DNA of 32,057 nucleotides from Thomasclavelia saccharogumia DSM 17460 (GTDB taxonomy: Bacteria; Bacillota_I; Bacilli_A; Erysipelotrichales; Coprobacillaceae), in the NCBI RefSeq assembly GCF_000686665.1, contig NZ_JMLH01000027.1, forward strand, positions 6,687 to 38,743. Direction: 5' to 3'. Below, piece after piece: positions 17-12,367 of this stretch (within the stretch, counting starts at the first letter, position 1; each line of letters begins with the position of its first letter). The notes under the pieces are model-generated. The model was not told the origin of the DNA. It saw only the letters and a program-made list of their open reading frames with translations, and ran no database searches. A program made the position numbers and the translations under genes.

Positions 17-325
17 TCAAACTAATGCGTCCTTTGCATCGCATGTGCGAATATATGATATTCTCCATGCAAAGCACGCATTAGTTTCACACCTAATATA
101 ACAAATCAATTTCATTAATTCTTGACGCTTTACATTAGAACTACCATTATCACTAAAAAAAGCAATAGCTGATAACAAACTTCCCATGCTAACAGCTGCT
201 CCAAAGGAAGCAATTTGTGCTTGATAATTTCCTTGTAATTTATTATCTTTAATGAGTTCAGAATTTTTTACTGCTTCATATGCAATCGGTAAATATCTAT
301 TTATTCTACTCTTTGACATCATCAT
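17..325 (-). CDS. cmr5: Type III-B CRISPR small subunit Cmr5, possibly with a replaced C-terminus
   Basis: This small alpha-helical protein would be the Cas11-type small subunit that lines the belly of the Cmr complex and contacts target RNA. Identification rests on size, position directly after cmr4, and Cmr5-like helical segments (YEAVKNSELI near residue 18, then IASFGAAVSMGSLLSAIAFF). Four start codons lie in tandem (GTG at 328, then ATG at 325, 322 and 319), overlapping the end of cmr4. A GAAGG motif best serves 325 or 322. After the KLICYI segment, the last 25 residues (Cys-, Ala- and Arg-rich, ending DAKDALV) are encoded by the inverted repeat at 19-87 and do not look like a Cmr5 tail. 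The protein is about 102 residues, at the short end for the family. Expected Cmr6 would lie left of the window. Confidence 0.72.
   Translation of the reverse strand: MMMSKSRINRYLPIAYEAVKNSELIKDNKLQGNYQAQIASFGAAVSMGSLLSAIAFFSDNGSSNVKRQELMKLICYIRCETNACFAWRISYIRTCDAKDALV
19..87. repeat. Long imperfect inverted repeat (palindromic element)
   Basis: Two 21-base arms at 19-39 and 67-87 are reverse complements with a single mismatch (20 of 21 positions), separated by a 27-base loop at 40-66. The loop itself contains a short palindrome (CGCATGTGCG, 41-50 region). The arms read AAACTAATGCGT on the outside and CTTTGCAT on the inside. The element overlaps the last 25 or so codons of cmr5 and its stop codon. 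It has no T-run, so it is not a simple terminator. Its GC content is above that of the surrounding cmr genes. It may be a dispersed palindromic repeat inserted into the gene end; that is inference. Confidence 0.8.
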
Positions 326-1133
326 CACCGCCTTCTTTAAATACAGTTACTTTAGTAAGTCCGTAACCAATTGAAGCATTACCACCAAACTGGACAATTT
401 TATTATTAACAGCTTCATTAAATTTTTTAAGTACTTCATCTTCTTCACAGCTAACACAAACAAAGAAAAGAGAATGATGCGAAACGTATTCTTCATACCA
501 GATATTTTCAGAAATACCATTATCTAAAACATTTCTTGCGACAACTGGTAATGAAATATCTTTTATTTTATCATGTGGCATAATAACAAGATTATTTGCC
601 GCATCAGGAGCAATCTGCTTAAATAATTTTTTGATTTCATCATCTTTTAAATTATCATCGATTTTTATTTCTTCTACGGTAATATCACCATTAACAGCTT
701 TATAAGATTTATTTTCATCTAACTTATTTATATTTAAATTGTATTTTATTTTCATAACTTCACACATTTCAATAAATCTTTCTAACATTTTTTTAGTAGT
801 AACCAATGAATATGGCATCTTACCGACTTCATTACGCATTGTCAACCCTAAACATTCACCACTATAAAATTTTAGTTTACCTGGCTTCTTTTTTTCATCT
901 TTGTTTTGTTCAATTGGTTCAGAGCCAAAAATCTCTATTTCAACTTGTTTATTAATTTTAGAATTATCTTGTATAAATTGTCTAAAAGCCCCTTTTATTC
1001 CTGATGAATTAATCATTGGATAATTAGTAAGTGGGTCTTTTTCAACCTCATTATCAATAATATTATAATTAATATCTCCGTTACCTACATGTAGGTTAGT
1101 AATTGGTTCTAGTATGTATATAATACTTTTCAT
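306..1133 (-). CDS. cmr4: Type III-B CRISPR RAMP protein Cmr4 (backbone RNA nuclease subunit)
   Basis: Cmr4 forms the repeated backbone of the Cmr complex and cuts target RNA at 6-nt intervals. The N-terminus shows the family signature: PITNLHVGNGD (residues 10-20), then an Asp at about 27 in NIIDNEVEKD, matching the catalytic Asp of characterised Cmr4 proteins, then YPMINSSGIKGAFR (38-51), the usual 'yP.ipgSslKGalR' motif. The C-terminal Gly-rich loop GGNASIGYGLTKV near residue 255 is also typical. At 275 residues the length is normal. The start ATG shares one base with the cmr3 stop (TAATG), with an AGGAGG ribosome binding site inside the cmr3 end, so translation is coupled. The stop is TAG, overlapping cmr5. 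Confidence 0.93.
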   Translation of the reverse strand: MKSIIYILEPITNLHVGNGDINYNIIDNEVEKDPLTNYPMINSSGIKGAFRQFIQDNSKINKQVEIEIFGSEPIEQNKDEKKKPGKLKFYSGECLGLTMRNEVGKMPYSLVTTKKMLERFIEMCEVMKIKYNLNINKLDENKSYKAVNGDITVEEIKIDDNLKDDEIKKLFKQIAPDAANNLVIMPHDKIKDISLPVVARNVLDNGISENIWYEEYVSHHSLFFVCVSCEEDEVLKKFNEAVNNKIVQFGGNASIGYGLTKVTVFKEGGDDDVKE

Positions 1134-2233
1134 TAGTTATTTCCTCCTATTTTTATAATCTGATTAAATCCGATATTTTTTAAATTTTCATTTTCAAATA
1201 AATGCTCAAAATCTTGCTCTCTTGCTTCATTTACAAAGAAAACACTACCAGCACGAATAAAATTATATAATTCACTTTGCTCTAGCTTATGATAAAAATT
1301 ATCTTTATAATAATTAGTTTTTAAACATCTAAAATTTCTTGTTTCTAAAAAAATCAGATCACAACATTCATTTAATTTATTAGCATCTTCACAAGCTAAA
1401 TCCGATAAAGCATAGTAATAAACACCATCATCGATCTTTAAAGTCTCTTTTATCGTTTCTTCTAAATTATTATTTTCTTTATACATAGTTAATTTAAATG
1501 CTGATTTCTCTGCACCCAGATAAACAACATCTGTTATCTTGTCATCCAAATTTAACTTTGTATCATCAAGCGTTACATAAAAACATAACTTATAATCTTT
1601 AAAAAACTTATACTCTTTTTTAAAGAAACCATCTTCATCTAAATAACGATTAATTCCTACTTTTACATGTGATTTAAAAATTTCACTATTTTCAATAACA
1701 CTTAAATCATCTAAAAGTACATATGAATCACGATAATCATCTTCTTTTTTTAAAGCTATTTTATCAATCAATTTAAAATCTCTTTCACTACTTCCATCCA
1801 TTATTTTACAAACATCTTTTTGCAATCCTCTTAATTTAATTTTATTATTATCAAAACTACCATTAAAAGGGGTTTTGACTAATATCTGTTTTTTATCATT
1901 TTTTAAAAACATTGGACTAATCTTTTTAATAACACCATATTCTAATTTATCATTACATGACATTATAAAACTACTTCTACCAATAAATTCTTTTTGCTTT
2001 TCAATTTGTTGAGCAGTTAATCCCTGACTACTAAAATTCTTATTTAACAAATTCATTCTTTTTAACACAAAATATCTCATCATCCCTAATAATGTTGTTT
2101 GTGTTGGTAAATTTTCTGATATTACAAAATAATTATTGTAAATCCCCTTATTATTCCTACCAAATCCAAAACTTCTTTCATTTCCCAGGAAATAATATTC
2201 AATTGGCTCTAATTCTACACAATACTTACTCAT
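1133..2233 (-). CDS. cmr3: Type III-B CRISPR RAMP protein Cmr3
   Basis: Cmr3 caps the 5' tag of the crRNA and binds Cas10 in the Cmr complex. The N-terminus has the family layout: CVELEPIEYYFLGNERSFGFG, then NLPTQTTLLGMMRYFVL, which matches the 'P.qtallG.lR' segment of Cmr3. Length is 366 residues, normal for the family. A longer frame opens at 2254, but an AAAGGAGG motif about 8 bases before the ATG at 2233 fixes the start at MSKYCVEL. The start overlaps the cas10 stop by 8 bases, and the end overlaps the cmr4 start by one base. This gene therefore belongs to a tightly coupled operon. Confidence 0.88.
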   Translation of the reverse strand: MSKYCVELEPIEYYFLGNERSFGFGRNNKGIYNNYFVISENLPTQTTLLGMMRYFVLKRMNLLNKNFSSQGLTAQQIEKQKEFIGRSSFIMSCNDKLEYGVIKKISPMFLKNDKKQILVKTPFNGSFDNNKIKLRGLQKDVCKIMDGSSERDFKLIDKIALKKEDDYRDSYVLLDDLSVIENSEIFKSHVKVGINRYLDEDGFFKKEYKFFKDYKLCFYVTLDDTKLNLDDKITDVVYLGAEKSAFKLTMYKENNNLEETIKETLKIDDGVYYYALSDLACEDANKLNECCDLIFLETRNFRCLKTNYYKDNFYHKLEQSELYNFIRAGSVFFVNEAREQDFEHLFENENLKNIGFNQIIKIGGNN

Positions 2234-3812
2234 TACTCTTGCCTCCTTTTTCAACTAAAAATTTAGCAAATCTTAACATACTTGATAATTCAGTATCTTC
2301 ATCTTTATTAAAATCATTTTTAATTATGGATTTAAAGCGCTTACTATCATTATCACTTTTAGCTTGAATAAACAAATCTGCAATATCTTCAATAAATTTT
2401 TGATAGTTATCCTGCATCGGATTACTATACATATTAGTAAAGAAATTGCTTATTTCTTTTTTATCCTTATTTTTTATTGCAATATTATATAAACCACGAT
2501 AATTATCCATCAAATAGATTACAGAATTCGTACTGTCGTTTATTTTTTCAGACTCTTTATTAGAAAGATAATAGTTATTTATAAGATTTTTAAATTTCTT
2601 TAAAGTTTCTGTCTCATTACCAAAATTTAAAAACACTGATAACCCACTCGCTTTAGTTAAATTAATTGCTATGCTGTCTTTTTTCTTATTATCATCGCCT
2701 AGTTTCTTTGCCATATCTAACATTTTTCGAGCCTGATTAAACGATTCATATAAAGGAAACTTTCTATAATTGATTGCAATTCCAAATGATATGCTAGCTT
2801 CTTCGATTTTTGATTCTTCAAAAATACCTCTAATTTTGTCACATAGATCTAAAATATTTCCATTACCATTTTTACTTATTATAGGTGCTAAAAACAATAA
2901 ATCATCACCACCAGCATATATCGTTACACCACCATACTCTTTGATCAAAGTGGCTGATTTAGTCGTATATTTAATACAGCTTTTAGAAAAATCCTTTACC
3001 TTTTCAATATCATTACCCATAACATTAAATTTTTTTGTCATTCCATCACCATCTGCCTGTACTATTGCAAGATAGTTAGATATTTTATAATCTTTTTTAT
3101 TTTTTATTCTAGCGATATCATCTACAGATTTGATTTGATTGTCATTTTTTTCAAATAGAACCTGTGGCTTGATTTGGGTATTATTTCTTTTATCATCATT
3201 TATAGTTTTAAAAAAGTTTTTGATATAAATATTTTTAGCATCTGTTTTATCTTTATCATCTAGCTGATCACTTTCTTTAATTTTTATGCCATTAAATAAT
3301 GTTAAGAAATAATTTTCTTTTTCCTCATACACATAAGAATTGAACTGTTCAACATTATCTAATATCTCACTAATTTCAAGCATGATATTATCAATCTTCT
3401 TTGTCTTGATGCAATGAATATTTACATATCTATTAACGAAAGTTTTAACCTCATCTCTACTAAAACATCTTTTGTCAAATTTATTGTCATCTACTCTAGT
3501 AAAAGCATTATATAATAGTTCCCCTGCTTCTTCTTTTATTTTCTTTATTATCCTATTGATATCTAGATTTTCATCAGCAATAAAAATAATATGGTCAGGA
3601 TAAGAACCTACTTCTTCACTAACATTATTCTTATCTTCAAAACTAGGTATTAATACATCACCATCATTTTGTTTTATTTCTAGAATTAATTGTTTAGCAA
3701 GATATGAAAATATATAGCTGGCAACCCATAATCCCCCTGGTGTTGAAGTCATACATAACGTTTTAACTATCGGTCCGAGCGTTATCCCATAATACATTTC
3801 GTTATCTTTCAT
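2226..3812 (-). CDS. cmr2: Type III-B Cas10/Cmr2, HD-less, with intact GGDD cyclase motif
   Basis: This is the large subunit of the Cmr complex. The protein begins with the Cmr2 signature YYGITLGPIVKTLCM and LWVASYIFSYLAKQL rather than an HD nuclease domain, so no DNA-cleaving HD module is visible. The first palm motif is ADGDG (residues 253-257, with Asp 254 and Asp 256). The cyclase motif AGGDDLLF has GGDD at residues 301-304, so synthesis of cyclic oligoadenylate from ATP is expected. A C-terminal helical domain follows. Length is 528 residues, short for Cas10 because of the missing HD domain. The start has GGAGG 9 bases upstream and overlaps the preceding RAMP gene by 11 bases. No CARF effector that would answer the signal is in the window. 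Confidence 0.93.
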   Translation of the reverse strand: MKDNEMYYGITLGPIVKTLCMTSTPGGLWVASYIFSYLAKQLILEIKQNDGDVLIPSFEDKNNVSEEVGSYPDHIIFIADENLDINRIIKKIKEEAGELLYNAFTRVDDNKFDKRCFSRDEVKTFVNRYVNIHCIKTKKIDNIMLEISEILDNVEQFNSYVYEEKENYFLTLFNGIKIKESDQLDDKDKTDAKNIYIKNFFKTINDDKRNNTQIKPQVLFEKNDNQIKSVDDIARIKNKKDYKISNYLAIVQADGDGMTKKFNVMGNDIEKVKDFSKSCIKYTTKSATLIKEYGGVTIYAGGDDLLFLAPIISKNGNGNILDLCDKIRGIFEESKIEEASISFGIAINYRKFPLYESFNQARKMLDMAKKLGDDNKKKDSIAINLTKASGLSVFLNFGNETETLKKFKNLINNYYLSNKESEKINDSTNSVIYLMDNYRGLYNIAIKNKDKKEISNFFTNMYSNPMQDNYQKFIEDIADLFIQAKSDNDSKRFKSIIKNDFNKDEDTELSSMLRFAKFLVEKGGKSNE

Positions 3813-5211
3813 TTTGGTTTTCCTCCAATCTAGTTAAAAAGTATTCAACTTCATAGTTGTCGTTGAATTTATTTTTAACATCCACCATATATAAAACCTT
3901 ATTTAATCCTGCTATCTCAAAAAAATCGATAAAATTAAAGTCTTCTTGATTAGGCAATCTAGCCCCAATATTTATTTTTTTTCGATCAATTTTTTCTCCT
4001 TTATATTTTCTTTCTCTAAAACTTATTTTTGGATCAGCATTTTGTAAACTTATTAAAGCATTATTATTTACTACAATATATATTTCTTTATAACTTTCTG
4101 TGACATGATAATGAAGCGGTGAAGGAAATCTTGATATTTCATCTTTTCCCACTTTTGCTTTAACATCAAAACCTTTCCAAAAACTCATTGTTTCTTTTCC
4201 ATTTTTACGAGGAATTTTATTAAATTTATTACGATTTTCTTTAGTCTCTAAGCTAAATTGATACGATTGGGCAAACCCCAATAACCCTCTTGTATAATAT
4301 ACTTTACTTCTATTGTTAAGATTATAATTATTAATAGTTTTTTCATTATCATGATACATTAAATTGTCAATATTATATTTTGCTAAATGAAGCCCTTGTT
4401 TCATAGCTTTTTTCTCATTAACAATACTATAACCATCTTGTTTAAAATACTTCTTCATAATTACTGAAGGAATATATCCATAATTAGAGTGAAGACCACT
4501 TTTGAGAATACGATTATATTCTGCAATTGCATTCAAAGCAACCGCATAATCAGCATTAATTTTATTGTTTTTTTCTTTATCCAATTCAAGTTTATATACT
4601 AAAACATTGTTATCCTTAAAATGATTTACTACTTTAAGTAAATTTTCTTCGATACCATTTTTATATTCCTGATCATCTATCTTAGAAACTCTAAAATTTC
4701 CATATCCCTTGCCTTGTTGTAGTCCAAATGCTGTCAAATCAATTAAAACTGGTAATAATTCTTTAATTTTGTTAGCCAATTGATGATTAAAACATCGTAT
4801 ATTGATTACAATTTCTTGATAAAAAGAAGAATAATATTTTTTGTTCTTTAAAATATAATCAGCATTTCCTAAAAACTTCTTTTTTTTACTACTATGATCT
4901 AATAAATCCATATTTTTATCTTTATTCATTGCTTTTATTCTCATTTTGTAATTCAATGCGATATGTTCTTCATCAACTAGCCAATCTTTATTCTCTAAAT
5001 TATTTACAACATTCTTTAACATCTCAGTTTCTGAATCTAACTTTTGTCCAGGATGCTTTTTCACCTCTTTTTCATAAGCAAGCCATGATAAAATAAAACG
5101 ATCAAGCTTGGGTTTTAATTCTGTAGCTCTGATTGTTGCTCCATCATCATCTTGAAAATGAATCATTGGTGTAATCTGTTTTAAACTAAATTTTAACTTT
5201 ATCATTTCCAT
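3802..5211 (-). CDS. RAMP-superfamily protein at the Cmr1 position (divergent Cmr1)
   Basis: This is the first gene of the Cmr operon. The N-terminus (FSLKQITPMIHF, then GATIRATELKPKLDRFI, residues 9-40) resembles the Cmr1 pattern 'iTP...GA...ElR.psikg..Rf'. A Gly-rich RAMP loop, GLQQGKGYGNF, sits at residues 163-173. A later SPLHYHV segment is also RAMP-like. At 469 residues it is longer than most Cmr1 proteins, so it could be a divergent Cmr1 or a clade-specific RAMP replacing it. In known Cmr complexes Cmr1 sits at the 3' end of the crRNA together with Cmr6. The start is fixed by GGAGGG 7 bases upstream of the ATG. No convincing promoter is seen upstream; a TTGATA lies near 5270 but lacks a well-spaced -10. 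Confidence 0.68.
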   Translation of the reverse strand: MEMIKLKFSLKQITPMIHFQDDDGATIRATELKPKLDRFILSWLAYEKEVKKHPGQKLDSETEMLKNVVNNLENKDWLVDEEHIALNYKMRIKAMNKDKNMDLLDHSSKKKKFLGNADYILKNKKYYSSFYQEIVINIRCFNHQLANKIKELLPVLIDLTAFGLQQGKGYGNFRVSKIDDQEYKNGIEENLLKVVNHFKDNNVLVYKLELDKEKNNKINADYAVALNAIAEYNRILKSGLHSNYGYIPSVIMKKYFKQDGYSIVNEKKAMKQGLHLAKYNIDNLMYHDNEKTINNYNLNNRSKVYYTRGLLGFAQSYQFSLETKENRNKFNKIPRKNGKETMSFWKGFDVKAKVGKDEISRFPSPLHYHVTESYKEIYIVVNNNALISLQNADPKISFRERKYKGEKIDRKKINIGARLPNQEDFNFIDFFEIAGLNKVLYMVDVKNKFNDNYEVEYFLTRLEENQNER

Positions 5212-7929: not shown

Positions 7930-8040
7930 ATCAAAAATGATAGAATTGTGATAGATAGTTATCCAATTTATTTACAATTTAAAGTGAACCGTCATAACCA
8001 TATAGTAAAATCATTTTTGCAAGAAAGGATAAAAATTATC

Positions 8041-8565
8041 ATGAGAAAAATATTATCTATATCATTATCTGTTATTTTATCTTTAATAATTTCATGTTCA
8101 AATATTAAAGCAATGCAACCAGATACTCAAGATATTACTACTGAAAACTATTATGATGAACTTGGTAATTACTATAACAGTGAAACTGGAGAATATTTCC
8201 AGTGGAATAACACAAGAAGTTCTGCAAAAAGTTTTAGTTTTAAGATTCATAGTTTTGTTGCTTCTGAAAGTTTTAAACTCAATACAACAAAAGTAAAAAT
8301 AACATGTTATCAGACTAAATATGTTAATGAAAAGGGTAATACGGTATCTGGTGAAAGTGGCAAATTTACTGTTAATTTACGTAGATCTCCTTGGCCATAT
8401 TCAAATAATATTGCCACATTCAATGCACCAATCGGTTCAAGTTTAACTAAAGATCTAGGTTCTGGTTTTTCAACTGACATTAAATACTTTATTGAAATAG
8501 CACCTGTTAATGCTTTGAGTAACGGAGTATATATCGAAGGTTCGGGAGAGGTAATATGTTATTAA
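8041..8565 (+). CDS. Small exported protein, putative lipoprotein, probable target of the divergent two-component system
   Basis: The protein has 174 residues. Residues 1-24 form a signal peptide (MRKILSISLSVILSLIISC), with a possible lipobox IISC giving Cys 19 as the lipidated residue; cleavage after NIKA by signal peptidase I is the alternative. The mature part starts with an acidic, Tyr-rich segment (ENYYDELGNYYNSETGEYF), followed by a Ser/Thr/Lys-rich region with alternating hydrophobic residues, suggesting a beta-sandwich. I do not recognise a named family. The frame is open from GTG at 7948, but that start has no ribosome binding site and would place a polar stretch before the signal peptide. 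AAAGG about 12 bases before 8041 is modest support. It is divergent from the response regulator. Confidence 0.75.
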   Translation: MRKILSISLSVILSLIISCSNIKAMQPDTQDITTENYYDELGNYYNSETGEYFQWNNTRSSAKSFSFKIHSFVASESFKLNTTKVKITCYQTKYVNEKGNTVSGESGKFTVNLRRSPWPYSNNIATFNAPIGSSLTKDLGSGFSTDIKYFIEIAPVNALSNGVYIEGSGEVICY

Positions 8566-8604
8566 AATAACATTCTTTGTAAATAAATTTGACTATCTAA
8601 TTTT

Positions 8605-8839
8605 TATAAAAAATAAAAAGGTAATCTATTAAGACCACCTTTCTATTGGTTCATCATAGCTTATTTCGTCGCCTAAGCGACTAAACGAACATTACCGATA
8701 ATAATATATTTTGTTAATAAAAAGCTAGAGAAGTGCTCTAACTTTGTGGGGAGGGAAGAGCAGTTGCTCTTCCTTCGTTTTGTGCGAGAGCACATTTGGG
8801 ATAAAGTGGTTCATCATCTGAACCACCTTTATTATAACA
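8605..8839 (-). ncRNA. Candidate structured noncoding RNA with its own promoter
   Basis: On the minus strand an extended -10 (TG at 8839-8838, TATAAT at 8836-8831) precedes four helices. H1 is TGGTTC/GAACCA (hairpin within 8804-8830). H2 is GTGCTCT/AGAGCAC (8733-8739 with 8787-8793), closing over H3, the 8-bp GGAAGAGC/GCTCTTCC hairpin (8754-8773). H4 is a stacked unit of GGTAAT/ATTACC (8691-8696 with 8620-8625), GTTC/GAAC (8687-8690 with 8649-8652) and GTCGC/GCGAC (8668-8672 with 8677-8681). A U-rich end (TTTTTATTTTTT, 8619-8608) follows. The motifs ATGATGAACCA and AAAGGTGGT each occur twice, near the 5' and 3' ends, so alternative long-range pairing is possible. I do not recognise a known RNA family. 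The -35 is weak. Confidence 0.5.
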
Positions 8840-9152
8840 TATTTAATAAAAAATGGAAGGTTTTTTTTAAAAAAAATAATATTTTTTGTTATCTTGGATT
8901 GTAAAACAAAACTAATTACATCTAGCTTTACATTCCCTACATTTGATTTTTTAATTCTTGCATTGAAAATGTTCATAAAACCGTTTTATCTTAATTAACC
9001 AAAACTAAATAAAAAATCACAAAAATCTAAAAATAAACATTTTTATTATATCATTATGAATTCTTTTAACAAGTTTAACGCTGTCCATTCAGATCATAAA
9101 CGTAAAATAAAAAAGATCTGCTCAATAAGATTCTTTATTCGATAAAAAAATA
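8840..9152. other. AT-rich intergenic stretch with no identified feature
   Basis: Between the candidate RNA promoter and the terminator of the ATP-grasp operon there is no open frame with a ribosome binding site, no strong hairpin and no repeat that I can support. The stretch has long A and T tracts (for example 8869-8886). Confidence 0.6.
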
Positions 9153-9217: not shown

Positions 9218-10423
9218 CTATCTCCAGTTACTTCCATCACTTCTTCTTAAAAACTCATCAATCATATAATCAAGATATTCTTGATTATCACTTCTGACCA
9301 TAAATACATGATTTCCCATGGCTGCACTTAATACCTCAGGAACATCGACATCTAAAACAATATCATTTTTAAATTGGTTTCTTAATTGATCATTATCATG
9401 TAAATAGCCAAAACCATCACGACGACCAATATAAGCTACTAGATATTGCTGCTTTAAATCTAAATAACATTTATCATAAATAACCATATCTGCCCATACA
9501 GTATAAACGTCACTATCATAACTAAAATTGATCATATCTGGCATATATGCTCCTGGAGCCCGCATATTTACTTCAAGGCCAACTAGATCACCTTTTTTCC
9601 CTAAACCTTCTTTATCAGCATCTAATCTGAAAAATTCAAAGTGGAAAAAGCGACTTCTAGTATCAAAAGCTTTAACAACTTTTTGCCCTACTTCTTCTAT
9701 ATCTGTTCCTGCAACAATTCGATTTTGAAATGCAGTATCACAATGCTCATTAACATTATCCATAATTGAATTTAACATAATCGTACTATTTGCAATCAAA
9801 ACATTCTTTTTCGAATCTGTAATTCCATCATATGTCTCAACATGACCATTTACATATTCCTCCATAATATAAACACGATCATCTTTTGTCGCAAAGAAAT
9901 ACTCTAACTCATGCTGGTTATTTAATTTATATGTTGATGTTGCTCCTACACCATTATCAGGTTTAACTACTACCGGATAGCCAACCTTTTCAACAAAAGC
10001 TATTGCATTATCAAAAGTATCGATCAAACAGTATCTAGCAACATTTAAACCAACACTTTGATAAACTGCTTTCATTTTTGATTTATATTTCATTACCGCT
10101 AAATCTTCAAATTTAGTACCACTATTAACATTAAAATCACTTCTAAGTCGAGCATCAGTTTCTAACCAGTACTCATTTTGACTTTCAATAAAATCAATTC
10201 TACCATACTTACTAATAAAATAAGCTACAGCTTTATAAACTTCATCGTAATTTTCTAAACTGCCAACTCGATAATATTCACTTAAACTATCTTTAGTCTC
10301 TTTACTAATTTCTTGATAACTTGCATCTCCAATTCCCAAAACATTCACACCACGAATCTTTAACTGTGAACAAAAATTATGAAAATATAATGGAAAATGC
10401 GGTGAAATAAACACTACATTCAT
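9218..10423 (-). CDS. ATP-grasp carboxylate-amine ligase-like enzyme (paralogue B)
   Basis: A 401-residue ATP-grasp enzyme of the carbamoyl-phosphate-synthase-L/carboxylate-amine ligase type. Visible elements are the Rossmann-like N-terminus MNVVFISPHFP, the ATP-binding strand VVVKPDNGVGA with Lys 154, the hinge YIMEEYVNG (Glu 188-189), and metal-binding residues HFEFF (Glu 263) and GLEVNMR (Glu 284, Asn 286, Arg 288) followed by PGAYMPDM. Such enzymes join a carboxylate to an amine or thiol through an acyl-phosphate; the substrates here are unknown. It is a clear paralogue of the protein at 11180-12367, sharing segments such as SEYYRV/TEYCYV, ARLRxDFN and AEVGYP/EKVGYP. Its start follows AAAGGGGG by 7 bases, 17 bases after the esterase gene. 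It is the last gene of the operon. Confidence 0.88.
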   Translation of the reverse strand: MNVVFISPHFPLYFHNFCSQLKIRGVNVLGIGDASYQEISKETKDSLSEYYRVGSLENYDEVYKAVAYFISKYGRIDFIESQNEYWLETDARLRSDFNVNSGTKFEDLAVMKYKSKMKAVYQSVGLNVARYCLIDTFDNAIAFVEKVGYPVVVKPDNGVGATSTYKLNNQHELEYFFATKDDRVYIMEEYVNGHVETYDGITDSKKNVLIANSTIMLNSIMDNVNEHCDTAFQNRIVAGTDIEEVGQKVVKAFDTRSRFFHFEFFRLDADKEGLGKKGDLVGLEVNMRAPGAYMPDMINFSYDSDVYTVWADMVIYDKCYLDLKQQYLVAYIGRRDGFGYLHDNDQLRNQFKNDIVLDVDVPEVLSAAMGNHVFMVRSDNQEYLDYMIDEFLRRSDGSNWR

Positions 10424-10439
10424 CTAATATCCCCCTTTT

Positions 10440-11177
10440 TTATAAAATATGGTTTAAAAAATACGGTAACTGAATTTGCCACCAATCCCAGTCATGATTA
10501 ACATCCTTACCCCAGAAATCGATCCATGCAGGAATATCTTTATAATCTAATAATTCTTTCATTCTTGTTGTCGAATAAATCATCTCATCTTCCCATGCCC
10601 CTTGACCACAACATAAAATAATATCACGATGACGATACATTTCAACATATGGATGGTCATAAGACATTCCATTTAAAAATTGAATCGGACTATTGTTATA
10701 TAAAATTTCATCATGATAATCACCAAAAAATAAATCACTATCATAATATCCACTTAAGCAAATACACCCTTGAAATAAATCTGGTCTTCTAAACAAGTAA
10801 TTTGCTGCATGAGTTGCCCCCATTGAACACCCTGTTGTATAAATAAGTTTACCAGTTCCATTAATATCAAAAATTCTTGGTACCAATTCATCTACTACAT
10901 AATAATACCATTGTTCCATCATATATGTACGATGTTGATTATCGCCACCTTCATCAGACCAGCATTCGCCATCAATACTATCTAAACAAAAGACTTGAAT
11001 TTGCCCTGACTCAATTTTATCAGCGATTACGTTGATCATCCCAAAATTTTCAAAATCATAAAAATGCCCATCTTGAGCCGGAAAAACTAATAAAGGAATT
11101 CCAGTATGACCATAAATTTTAAACTCCATTTCACGATTTAAACAATTGCTGTATTCTTTAAAATATTCAACTTTCAT
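10440..11177 (-). CDS. Alpha/beta-hydrolase esterase (esterase D / antigen 85-like fold)
   Basis: A 245-residue soluble alpha/beta hydrolase. The nucleophile elbow is TTGCSMGATHA with Ser 118. The likely catalytic His is His 228 in DVNHDWDWW, and an acidic residue in GAWEDE (about 196-198) is the probable third member. The N-terminus (PLLVFPAQDGHFYDFENFGM) resembles putative esterases that hydrolyse small thioester or acyl substrates. There is no signal peptide, so the protein is cytoplasmic. The ATG lies two bases after the upstream ATP-grasp stop (TAG), with AGGAGG inside that gene's end, so expression is coupled. Sandwiched between two ATP-grasp ligases, it probably releases, trims or proofreads an acyl or peptide product of them; that role is inference. 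Confidence 0.85.
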   Translation of the reverse strand: MKVEYFKEYSNCLNREMEFKIYGHTGIPLLVFPAQDGHFYDFENFGMINVIADKIESGQIQVFCLDSIDGECWSDEGGDNQHRTYMMEQWYYYVVDELVPRIFDINGTGKLIYTTGCSMGATHAANYLFRRPDLFQGCICLSGYYDSDLFFGDYHDEILYNNSPIQFLNGMSYDHPYVEMYRHRDIILCCGQGAWEDEMIYSTTRMKELLDYKDIPAWIDFWGKDVNHDWDWWQIQLPYFLNHIL

Positions 11178-11179
11178 CT

Positions 11180-12367
11180 CTACGCCTCCTGTAATACCTT
11201 ATCGATAAAATCATTAACTTCTTCCATCGTCTCAAAACGTGCTGTATAAGTATAATTTCCCATTGCCCCCGATAAAATATCCGGCATCCGTTCATTCATT
11301 ACAATATGACTACCAAACATTGCTACAAGAGCATCATTATTGTAATAATAATTTTTACCATCACGTCGTCCACAATATACACAATGATAAGGGCGATTTG
11401 TATAATAATCGCTATTATCATAAATAACCATATCACTATAGATTTTATAAACATCAATATCATTAGCCCAGTTCATCATATCTGGTGTATAACCTCCTGG
11501 TGGTCGCATATTGACTTCTAAGCCAATGAAATCTCCTTTATTTCCTAATCCTGGGCGATCTTCTAATAATTGAAAAAATTCGCAATGAAAAAATCTACCA
11601 TTAACAGGAAATTCCCTAACTACACTTCTTCCCAATTCAACTAATTTATCAGGAATTTTTCTTAAAGAATAATAGTGCATATCACTATTATCATTTACGA
11701 CATCCATGATTGAATTAGGAAAAACATGTGACGTCTCAAATAACACCTCATGCTCCCTATTAGCAATACCATCATAAGAAATAATCAAACCATTGACAAA
11801 TTCTTCCATAATATATTGCGTAATATGATCAATTCGATAAAATTCTTCTAACTCTTGATCATTATTCAACTTATATGTAGCAGCAGCCCCTACACCATTA
11901 TCCGGCTTAACAACTACTGGATATCCAACTTCAGCAATAAACTTTCTCCCATTTTCAATGGTATCAACAAGATGATAACGCGCTGTTTTAACTCCTGCTT
12001 TTTCATAATAAGCTTTCATTCCTGATTTAGTTTTAAAAATCTTAGTTACGTCTTCTTTCATTCCCGTATTAATATTAAAATCCGTTCTAAGTCTAGCATC
12101 TAATTCTAACCAGTATTCATTATTAGATTCTAACCAGTCAATTTTCCCATATTTACTGGCCAAATACGCCACACAACGATATACATTGTCATAATTTTCC
12201 ATATTGTTTACATAACAATATTCAGTTACTGAATTTCTTAACTCACTGCTTATACTTTCTGATGGCATGTCCCCAATTGCCAAAACATTTACACCGTGCT
12301 GTTTCATTCGATCACAAAAATGCCAATATGACTTAGGAAACATCGGTGAGATAAATAAAAAGTTCAT
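11180..12367 (-). CDS. ATP-grasp carboxylate-amine ligase-like enzyme (paralogue A)
   Basis: First gene of the three-gene operon; 395 residues. It has the same layout as the enzyme at 9218-10423: N-terminal MNFLFISPMFP, ATP-binding VVVKPDNGVGA with Lys 154, hinge YIMEEFVNG, metal-site FHCEFF and GLEVNMRPPGG. The second half differs enough between the two (for example ISYDGIANREHEV against ETYDGITDSKKNV) that they likely recognise different substrates. The start is set by AAGGAGGGGG seven bases before the ATG. A promoter with TATAAT lies 50 bases upstream. Two ligases plus one esterase suggest stepwise assembly of a small amide-linked product, but nothing in the sequence identifies it. Confidence 0.88.
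   Translation of the reverse strand: MNFLFISPMFPKSYWHFCDRMKQHGVNVLAIGDMPSESISSELRNSVTEYCYVNNMENYDNVYRCVAYLASKYGKIDWLESNNEYWLELDARLRTDFNINTGMKEDVTKIFKTKSGMKAYYEKAGVKTARYHLVDTIENGRKFIAEVGYPVVVKPDNGVGAAATYKLNNDQELEEFYRIDHITQYIMEEFVNGLIISYDGIANREHEVLFETSHVFPNSIMDVVNDNSDMHYYSLRKIPDKLVELGRSVVREFPVNGRFFHCEFFQLLEDRPGLGNKGDFIGLEVNMRPPGGYTPDMMNWANDIDVYKIYSDMVIYDNSDYYTNRPYHCVYCGRRDGKNYYYNNDALVAMFGSHIVMNERMPDILSGAMGNYTYTARFETMEEVNDFIDKVLQEA

Follow-up and report, generated by a model that had tools for sequence, protein, structure and literature searches.

A probable C-rich small RNA of the genus Thomasclavelia and its possible pairing with LytTR and Agr-like messages

The region behind an ATP-grasp/esterase/ATP-grasp operon of Thomasclavelia saccharogumia DSM 17460 carries on the minus strand what genome comparison supports as an uncatalogued structured RNA, belonging to no Rfam family. 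This element, here called unit 1 (8718..8827 of the window, the 32,057 nt stretch of DNA that was analysed), would be about 110 nt long, its ends being deduced from a −10 element and an intrinsic terminator. It is conserved as a single copy in eight species, its stems covary in the aligned sequences, and the invariant sequence that pairing leaves unaccounted for is C-rich. Unit 1 is probably a trans-acting C-rich small RNA, and the complementarity of its main C-rich stretch points to ribosome-binding sites as the place where it would act.

Two structured units in one intergenic region

An earlier note, made from the letters of this stretch, had proposed a single minus-strand RNA of about 220 nt in a gene-free interval. 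The interval is indeed without a supported gene, the nominal 83-aa ORF (8725-8976, minus strand) having no Pfam match and running across the promoter, and neither tRNA nor tmRNA was found. The claim of structure above chance also stands, the minus strand of 8600-8850 folding at −81.2 kcal/mol against −43.2 ± 4.6 for dinucleotide shuffles (n = 200; z −8.35, 0/200 as good) and the plus strand folding less well (z −5.54). Two consecutive terminators could by themselves give strong folding, and relatives were therefore searched. A DNA search of 60 relatives recovered the region throughout the genus except in one genome, and in the aligned relatives only the first ~110 nt is common to all. The observation was real but the unit had been drawn wrongly: there are two units within 8600-8850. 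The first closes with a terminator of its own that shows covariation in eight species, giving an RNA of about half the proposed length, and the 3' half is a separate and less conserved unit.

A covariance model of unit 1 (R1) finds exactly one copy in each of eight of nine Thomasclavelia genomes (E 1.9e-28 to 1.8e-22), the exception being G006, and has no match among 89 further genomes from the family and order, and so far as these sequences reach unit 1 appears restricted to the genus. A loose DNA pattern matched ten genome contigs, of which the Thomasclavelia contigs tested were scored by the model and the unrelated ones were not; the matches outside the genus (four genome contigs and 22 viral contigs) are put down to chance, because the model scored only Thomasclavelia contigs among those tested. 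An origin in a phage or plasmid was set aside after DNA searches of both gave no match. The possibility raised earlier of a repeat scattered through the genome, or a mobile one, was likewise rejected, there being one copy per genome with a constant upstream neighbour.

That neighbour is the operon itself (9218..12367, minus strand, by Pfam), which precedes unit 1 in all eight genomes with order and strand unchanged. The genes downstream vary between species, and unit 1 is therefore not the leader of a downstream gene; a riboswitch or other cis-acting leader was rejected on the same ground, the next gene in the window (7948-8565) moreover being convergent.

Anatomy and covariation of unit 1

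Read along the minus strand the order is TGTTATAAT, hairpin 1, GAACCACUUUAUCCC, hairpin 2, hairpin 3, CUUCCCUCCCCACAA and the terminator. The putative promoter is the extended −10 element TGTTATAAT (8831..8839), correctly picked out in the earlier note, and the aligned sequences of all eight species have TGYTATNAT at this position. A good −35 was not found for unit 1, and TGTTATAAT is absent from the output of a simple sigma-70 scan. Hairpin 1 (8803..8829; 8829-8819 with 8813-8803) begins almost at the start expected from TGTTATAAT; its 3' arm is invariant and one closing pair is compensated (in G001). Between hairpins 1 and 2 lies the block GAACCACUUUAUCCC, invariant in 8/8, and here also is motif A, UUUAUCCCAAA (8795..8805), predicted to be single-stranded, of which UUUAUCCC is invariant in 8/8 and unpaired in the model ensemble. 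Hairpin 2 (UGUGC/GCACA, 8781..8794) can pair in all eight species and shows a U-A to A-U exchange in G008, as extracted by script. In hairpin 3 (8754..8773; 8773-8766 with 8761-8754) a G-C pair has become A-U, by change on both sides, in half of the eight.

Motif B, CUUCCCUCCCCACAA (8744..8758), is the stretch proposed to pair with targets and is invariant in all eight species. Its 5' part belongs to the arm of hairpin 3 and its CCCAC is predicted to be open; in a model of the free RNA CCCAC is open in G000 and G004 and shows some pairing in G005, and CUUCCC, just before it, lies within hairpin 3. Two UCCC motifs occur in every species and a third, UCCCA, occurs in the terminator loop of four of the eight, their openness being predicted only. 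The intrinsic terminator (8719..8745; 8745-8736 with 8730-8721, U run 8723-8719) has two pairs altered on both sides across the eight species, and its U run is present in all of them, with an interruption by CC in G005.

Taken alone unit 1 folds with z −7.86, and its minimum-energy structure is also the centroid structure. Its covariation score is 0.202 against 0.149 ± 0.011 for shuffles, none of 500 scoring as high, and slid controls reach at most 0.08. In the alignment 92% of cells are paired and five pairs, with twelve cells, are changed on both sides, one of these five being to be discounted as it falls in the misaligned hairpin 2. In three sequences MAFFT places this hairpin some two columns off; the count made by the tool therefore understates the helix, and the script count was used for it. 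Given no structure, RNAalifold recovered the terminator as well as hairpins 1 and 3, and four of the pairs are compensated. The covariation and cross-species conservation that the earlier note had asked for are thus found in unit 1.

Unit 2 and the neighbouring CRISPR island

Unit 2 (8607..8701, minus strand) has a z of −5.38 alone and contains a terminator-type hairpin (8647-8632 with 8627-8612, minus strand) that appears in the output of a terminator scan; the U-rich end noted earlier near 8619-8612 (minus strand) is confirmed. It would seem to be a terminator unit. It occurs in only four species, the window's copy having counterparts in G007, G001 and G003 only, and is missing in four of the eight genomes that carry unit 1; its patterns were not found in viral contigs. 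In T. cocleata unit 2 is flanked by the small RNA and a HAD-hydrolase gene, and it is therefore part of an old intergenic region and not of the CRISPR island nearby. A further terminator-like hairpin (AAAAGAGCG...CGCTCTTTT; L018:7726-7755(-), also in L024 and L080) is conserved between species immediately ahead of the HAD-hydrolase ribosome-binding site, an attenuator-like arrangement.

The island in the window is a type III-B Cmr module (17-5211, minus strand), to which an RT-Cas1 fusion (RVT_1 and Cas1 domains) and Cas6 are linked on the contig (L070:524-6446; G000:C26:1-6700). In G007 (L080) a Cmr module, RT-Cas1, CRISPR arrays and an AbiL-like pair, the last found also on G000:C65, are placed between the small RNA and the HAD-hydrolase gene. 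One CRISPR spacer (L024:12594-12634, on G000:C65) matches unit 2 at 8665-8632 (minus strand) over 30/30 and 33/34 bases, and past this match it continues into an inverted terminator loop, which looks like the copy of a hairpin RNA made with a strand switch. RT-Cas1 proteins are reported to be able to acquire spacers from RNA (PMC11014452), and the spacer may therefore have been copied from a terminator transcript of the cell itself; a relative with an inverted loop is an equally possible source. The arrays of G007 (L080:5690-6182 and 9357-9830(-)) hold several spacers resembling transcript ends, one a hairpin with terminator character (AAAAAGCAGGAACTTATTCCTGCTT) and another with a Shine-Dalgarno sequence and ATG. 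Elsewhere, a repeat TGGGGAGGGGGCCACYATG lies near the ends of six contigs (G000:C57, C74, C78, C85, C98 and C107) and occurs also in G003, and is probably an unresolved repeated element.

Complementarity of motif B to ribosome-binding sites

When nine genomes were searched with the complement of motif B, allowing up to 2 mismatches, six sites appeared besides the unit 1 gene itself, and three of these six are in Agr-like loci. Two are ribosome-binding sites, belonging to an agrD-like gene of G005 (L114) and to a LytTR regulator of G008 (L147). The third, a perfect 15-nt complement, is also in G005; it follows a kinase-like gene and an 18-codon ORF and has a LytTR gene nearby (L111:1440-1680(-); G005:C1 near 3232138). 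The ORF, MQLYSFFEWIIEWLYGKK, has the kinase-like gene ahead of it and possibly encodes a signalling or small membrane peptide. As a general target agrD was rejected, a good match being found for one agrD only, that of G005.

A second search, for TGGGGAGG placed 3-11 nt before ATG, gave some 15 matches at real ribosome-binding sites of the RNA-bearing genomes. Five of them belong to LytTR regulators, for which the binomial chance is 7e-9 before correction for a class noticed afterwards, taking LytTR genes as ~0.5% of genes and assuming some 2,900 genes per genome; TetR, FeoB, PTS and GGDEF genes are also preceded by such sites.

The LytTR sites of the genus (n = 104) were compared with a background sample of 296 genes, drawn from stretches totalling 400 kb. 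Pairing with motif B at −18 kcal/mol or below is reached by 8/104 LytTR sites and 0/296 of the background (p 1.7e-5), and a shared run of seven or more by 17/104 and 7/296 (p 2.5e-6), values to be read in the light of the class having been tested in the very genomes where it was first noticed and of related genes not being independent. Generic affinity for the 16S anti-SD shows no difference between LytTR sites and background (p 0.37), nor are LytTR sites enriched for pairing with motif A. Of 300 shuffled motifs one matches the mean difference of motif B and three its 1% tail; on two weaker measures nine and fifteen of 300 do as well.

Conservation of the sites is partial. Close species keep some of them, GTGGGGATGGGGATAATTATG being common to G000, G003 and G007, and the LytTR paralogues that match motif B differ between species. 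In G006, the genome without the RNA, the mean pairing energy of LytTR sites is equally favourable (n = 5 genes); set against their orthologues these sites pair less well than all four of one group and are intermediate in two groups.

Proposed function and alternative explanations

In the pathway that we propose transcription of unit 1 would start at an extended −10 promoter of its own, behind the operon, and stop at its own terminator near 8719. The C-rich stretches of the RNA, above all motif B, would then pair with mRNAs at G-rich Shine-Dalgarno sequences and so block translation. The open CCCAC may serve as first contact with the arm of hairpin 3 opening afterwards, an order which the location of CUUCCC within that hairpin fits. 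The likeliest favoured partners would be mRNAs of LytTR response regulators and of some other Agr-like signalling genes, although that these are the main targets is a tentative reading of the complementarity statistics. That unit 1 jointly restrains paralogous LytTR/Agr-like quorum-sensing circuits at the post-transcriptional level, matching G-rich ribosome-binding sites being gained and lost between species, is possible and rather doubtful.

A distinct possibility is that unit 1 does act in trans as a C-rich small RNA but on other targets or on a broad set of them, the enrichment of LytTR sites then reflecting the G-rich ribosome-binding sites of that family itself. The G-richness of LytTR sites in G006, which does without the RNA, and the TGGGGAGG sites of TetR, FeoB, PTS and GGDEF genes speak for such a reading, whereas the equal generic anti-SD affinity of LytTR and background sites and the rarity with which shuffled motifs match the performance of motif B speak against it. 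A trans role could also be missing altogether if unit 1 belonged to the ATP-grasp operon as a by-product or as its 3' regulatory end, either a fragment processed from the 3' UTR or a terminator region that binds protein. This would account for its constant place directly behind the operon on the same strand but leaves its own conserved −10 element and two invariant stretches outside stems, needless for a mere terminator, to be explained, and we regard it as unlikely.

It is very improbable that the conserved sequence is a tiny messenger. In all eight species an ATG in or beside the loop of hairpin 1 opens a frame M(x)NHFIP, but this frame runs for anything from 12 to 36 codons and diverges in sequence and length past the sixth or seventh residue, and the shared part of its DNA shows no synonymous change at all; the constraint is therefore on RNA and not on protein. 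Barely credible by now is the single RNA of ~220 nt whose 5' hairpin strand could switch to pair with the 3' region. The doubled motifs on which this was built do exist, ATGATGAACCA at 8817-8807 and 8657-8647 and AAAGGTGGT at 8830-8822 and 8642-8634, and read-through of the first terminator would join both units, but exact copies are confined to the window's own genome, hairpin 1 is strong, and unit 2 is lacking from half of the genomes with unit 1, which leaves the switch unsupported. The alternative helices named for it fare no better in the relatives. The 7-bp closing helix (GTGCTCT, 8793-8787, with AGAGCAC, 8739-8733) is absent from the predicted folds and is impossible in some relatives, G005 for instance, where GUGCAUA would face GGACAUC, and the GGTAAT/ATTACC closure cannot be made in G007, where the 3' partner is GATCCCC.

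Unit 1 as a trans-acting small RNA gives a gut-bacterial genus a well-defined and experimentally tractable candidate of this kind. Should the target prediction prove right, several peptide-signalling circuits would be linked through one RNA, which would offer a testable case of how many parallel quorum-sensing systems are restrained in one cell.

Comparison with known C-rich small RNAs

A search of the window against Rfam 15 at gathering threshold gave no match, in agreement with the earlier note, which had recognised no known family. In a relaxed search the best was L20_leader (E = 0.039, 21.9 bits against a cut-off of 58.7), and the RsaE/RoxS model was not among the matches up to E = 5. A literature search on regulatory RNAs in the genus Thomasclavelia found nothing relevant.

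In low-GC Gram-positives exposed C-rich stretches are the usual grip of small RNAs on Shine-Dalgarno sequences (PMC4132741, PMC9410917). For LhrC the pairing of its C-rich motif with Shine-Dalgarno sequences was shown by mutation and probing, and RNAIII, RsaE, SprD and FsrA use C-rich stretches in the same way (PMC4132741), as does IsrR through its C-rich regions (PMC9410917). The features of this class, an own promoter, a terminator and a conserved exposed C-rich stretch, are all seen in unit 1 as judged from sequence and covariation.

RsaE/RoxS and FsrA of the Bacillales resemble unit 1 in the C-rich motif that pairs with Shine-Dalgarno sequences and in their low-GC Gram-positive hosts (reviewed in PMC4132741), but no Rfam match links them even in the relaxed search, and unit 1 is confined to one genus of another class. 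IsrR of the staphylococci resembles unit 1 in having three stem-loops and a terminator, conserved single-stranded C-rich regions and little stem covariation (PMC9410917); it is Fur-regulated and targets the mRNAs of iron enzymes, and no sequence relation to unit 1 was found. LhrC of Listeria monocytogenes likewise combines a hairpin, a single-stranded stretch and a terminator, and pairs with Shine-Dalgarno sequences through several CU-rich (UCCC) motifs (PMC4132741), but it is present in five copies in Listeria whereas unit 1 is single-copy, and neither sequence nor Rfam matches connect the two. A member of none of these families by sequence, unit 1 is by its predicted anatomy LhrC/IsrR/RsaE-like.
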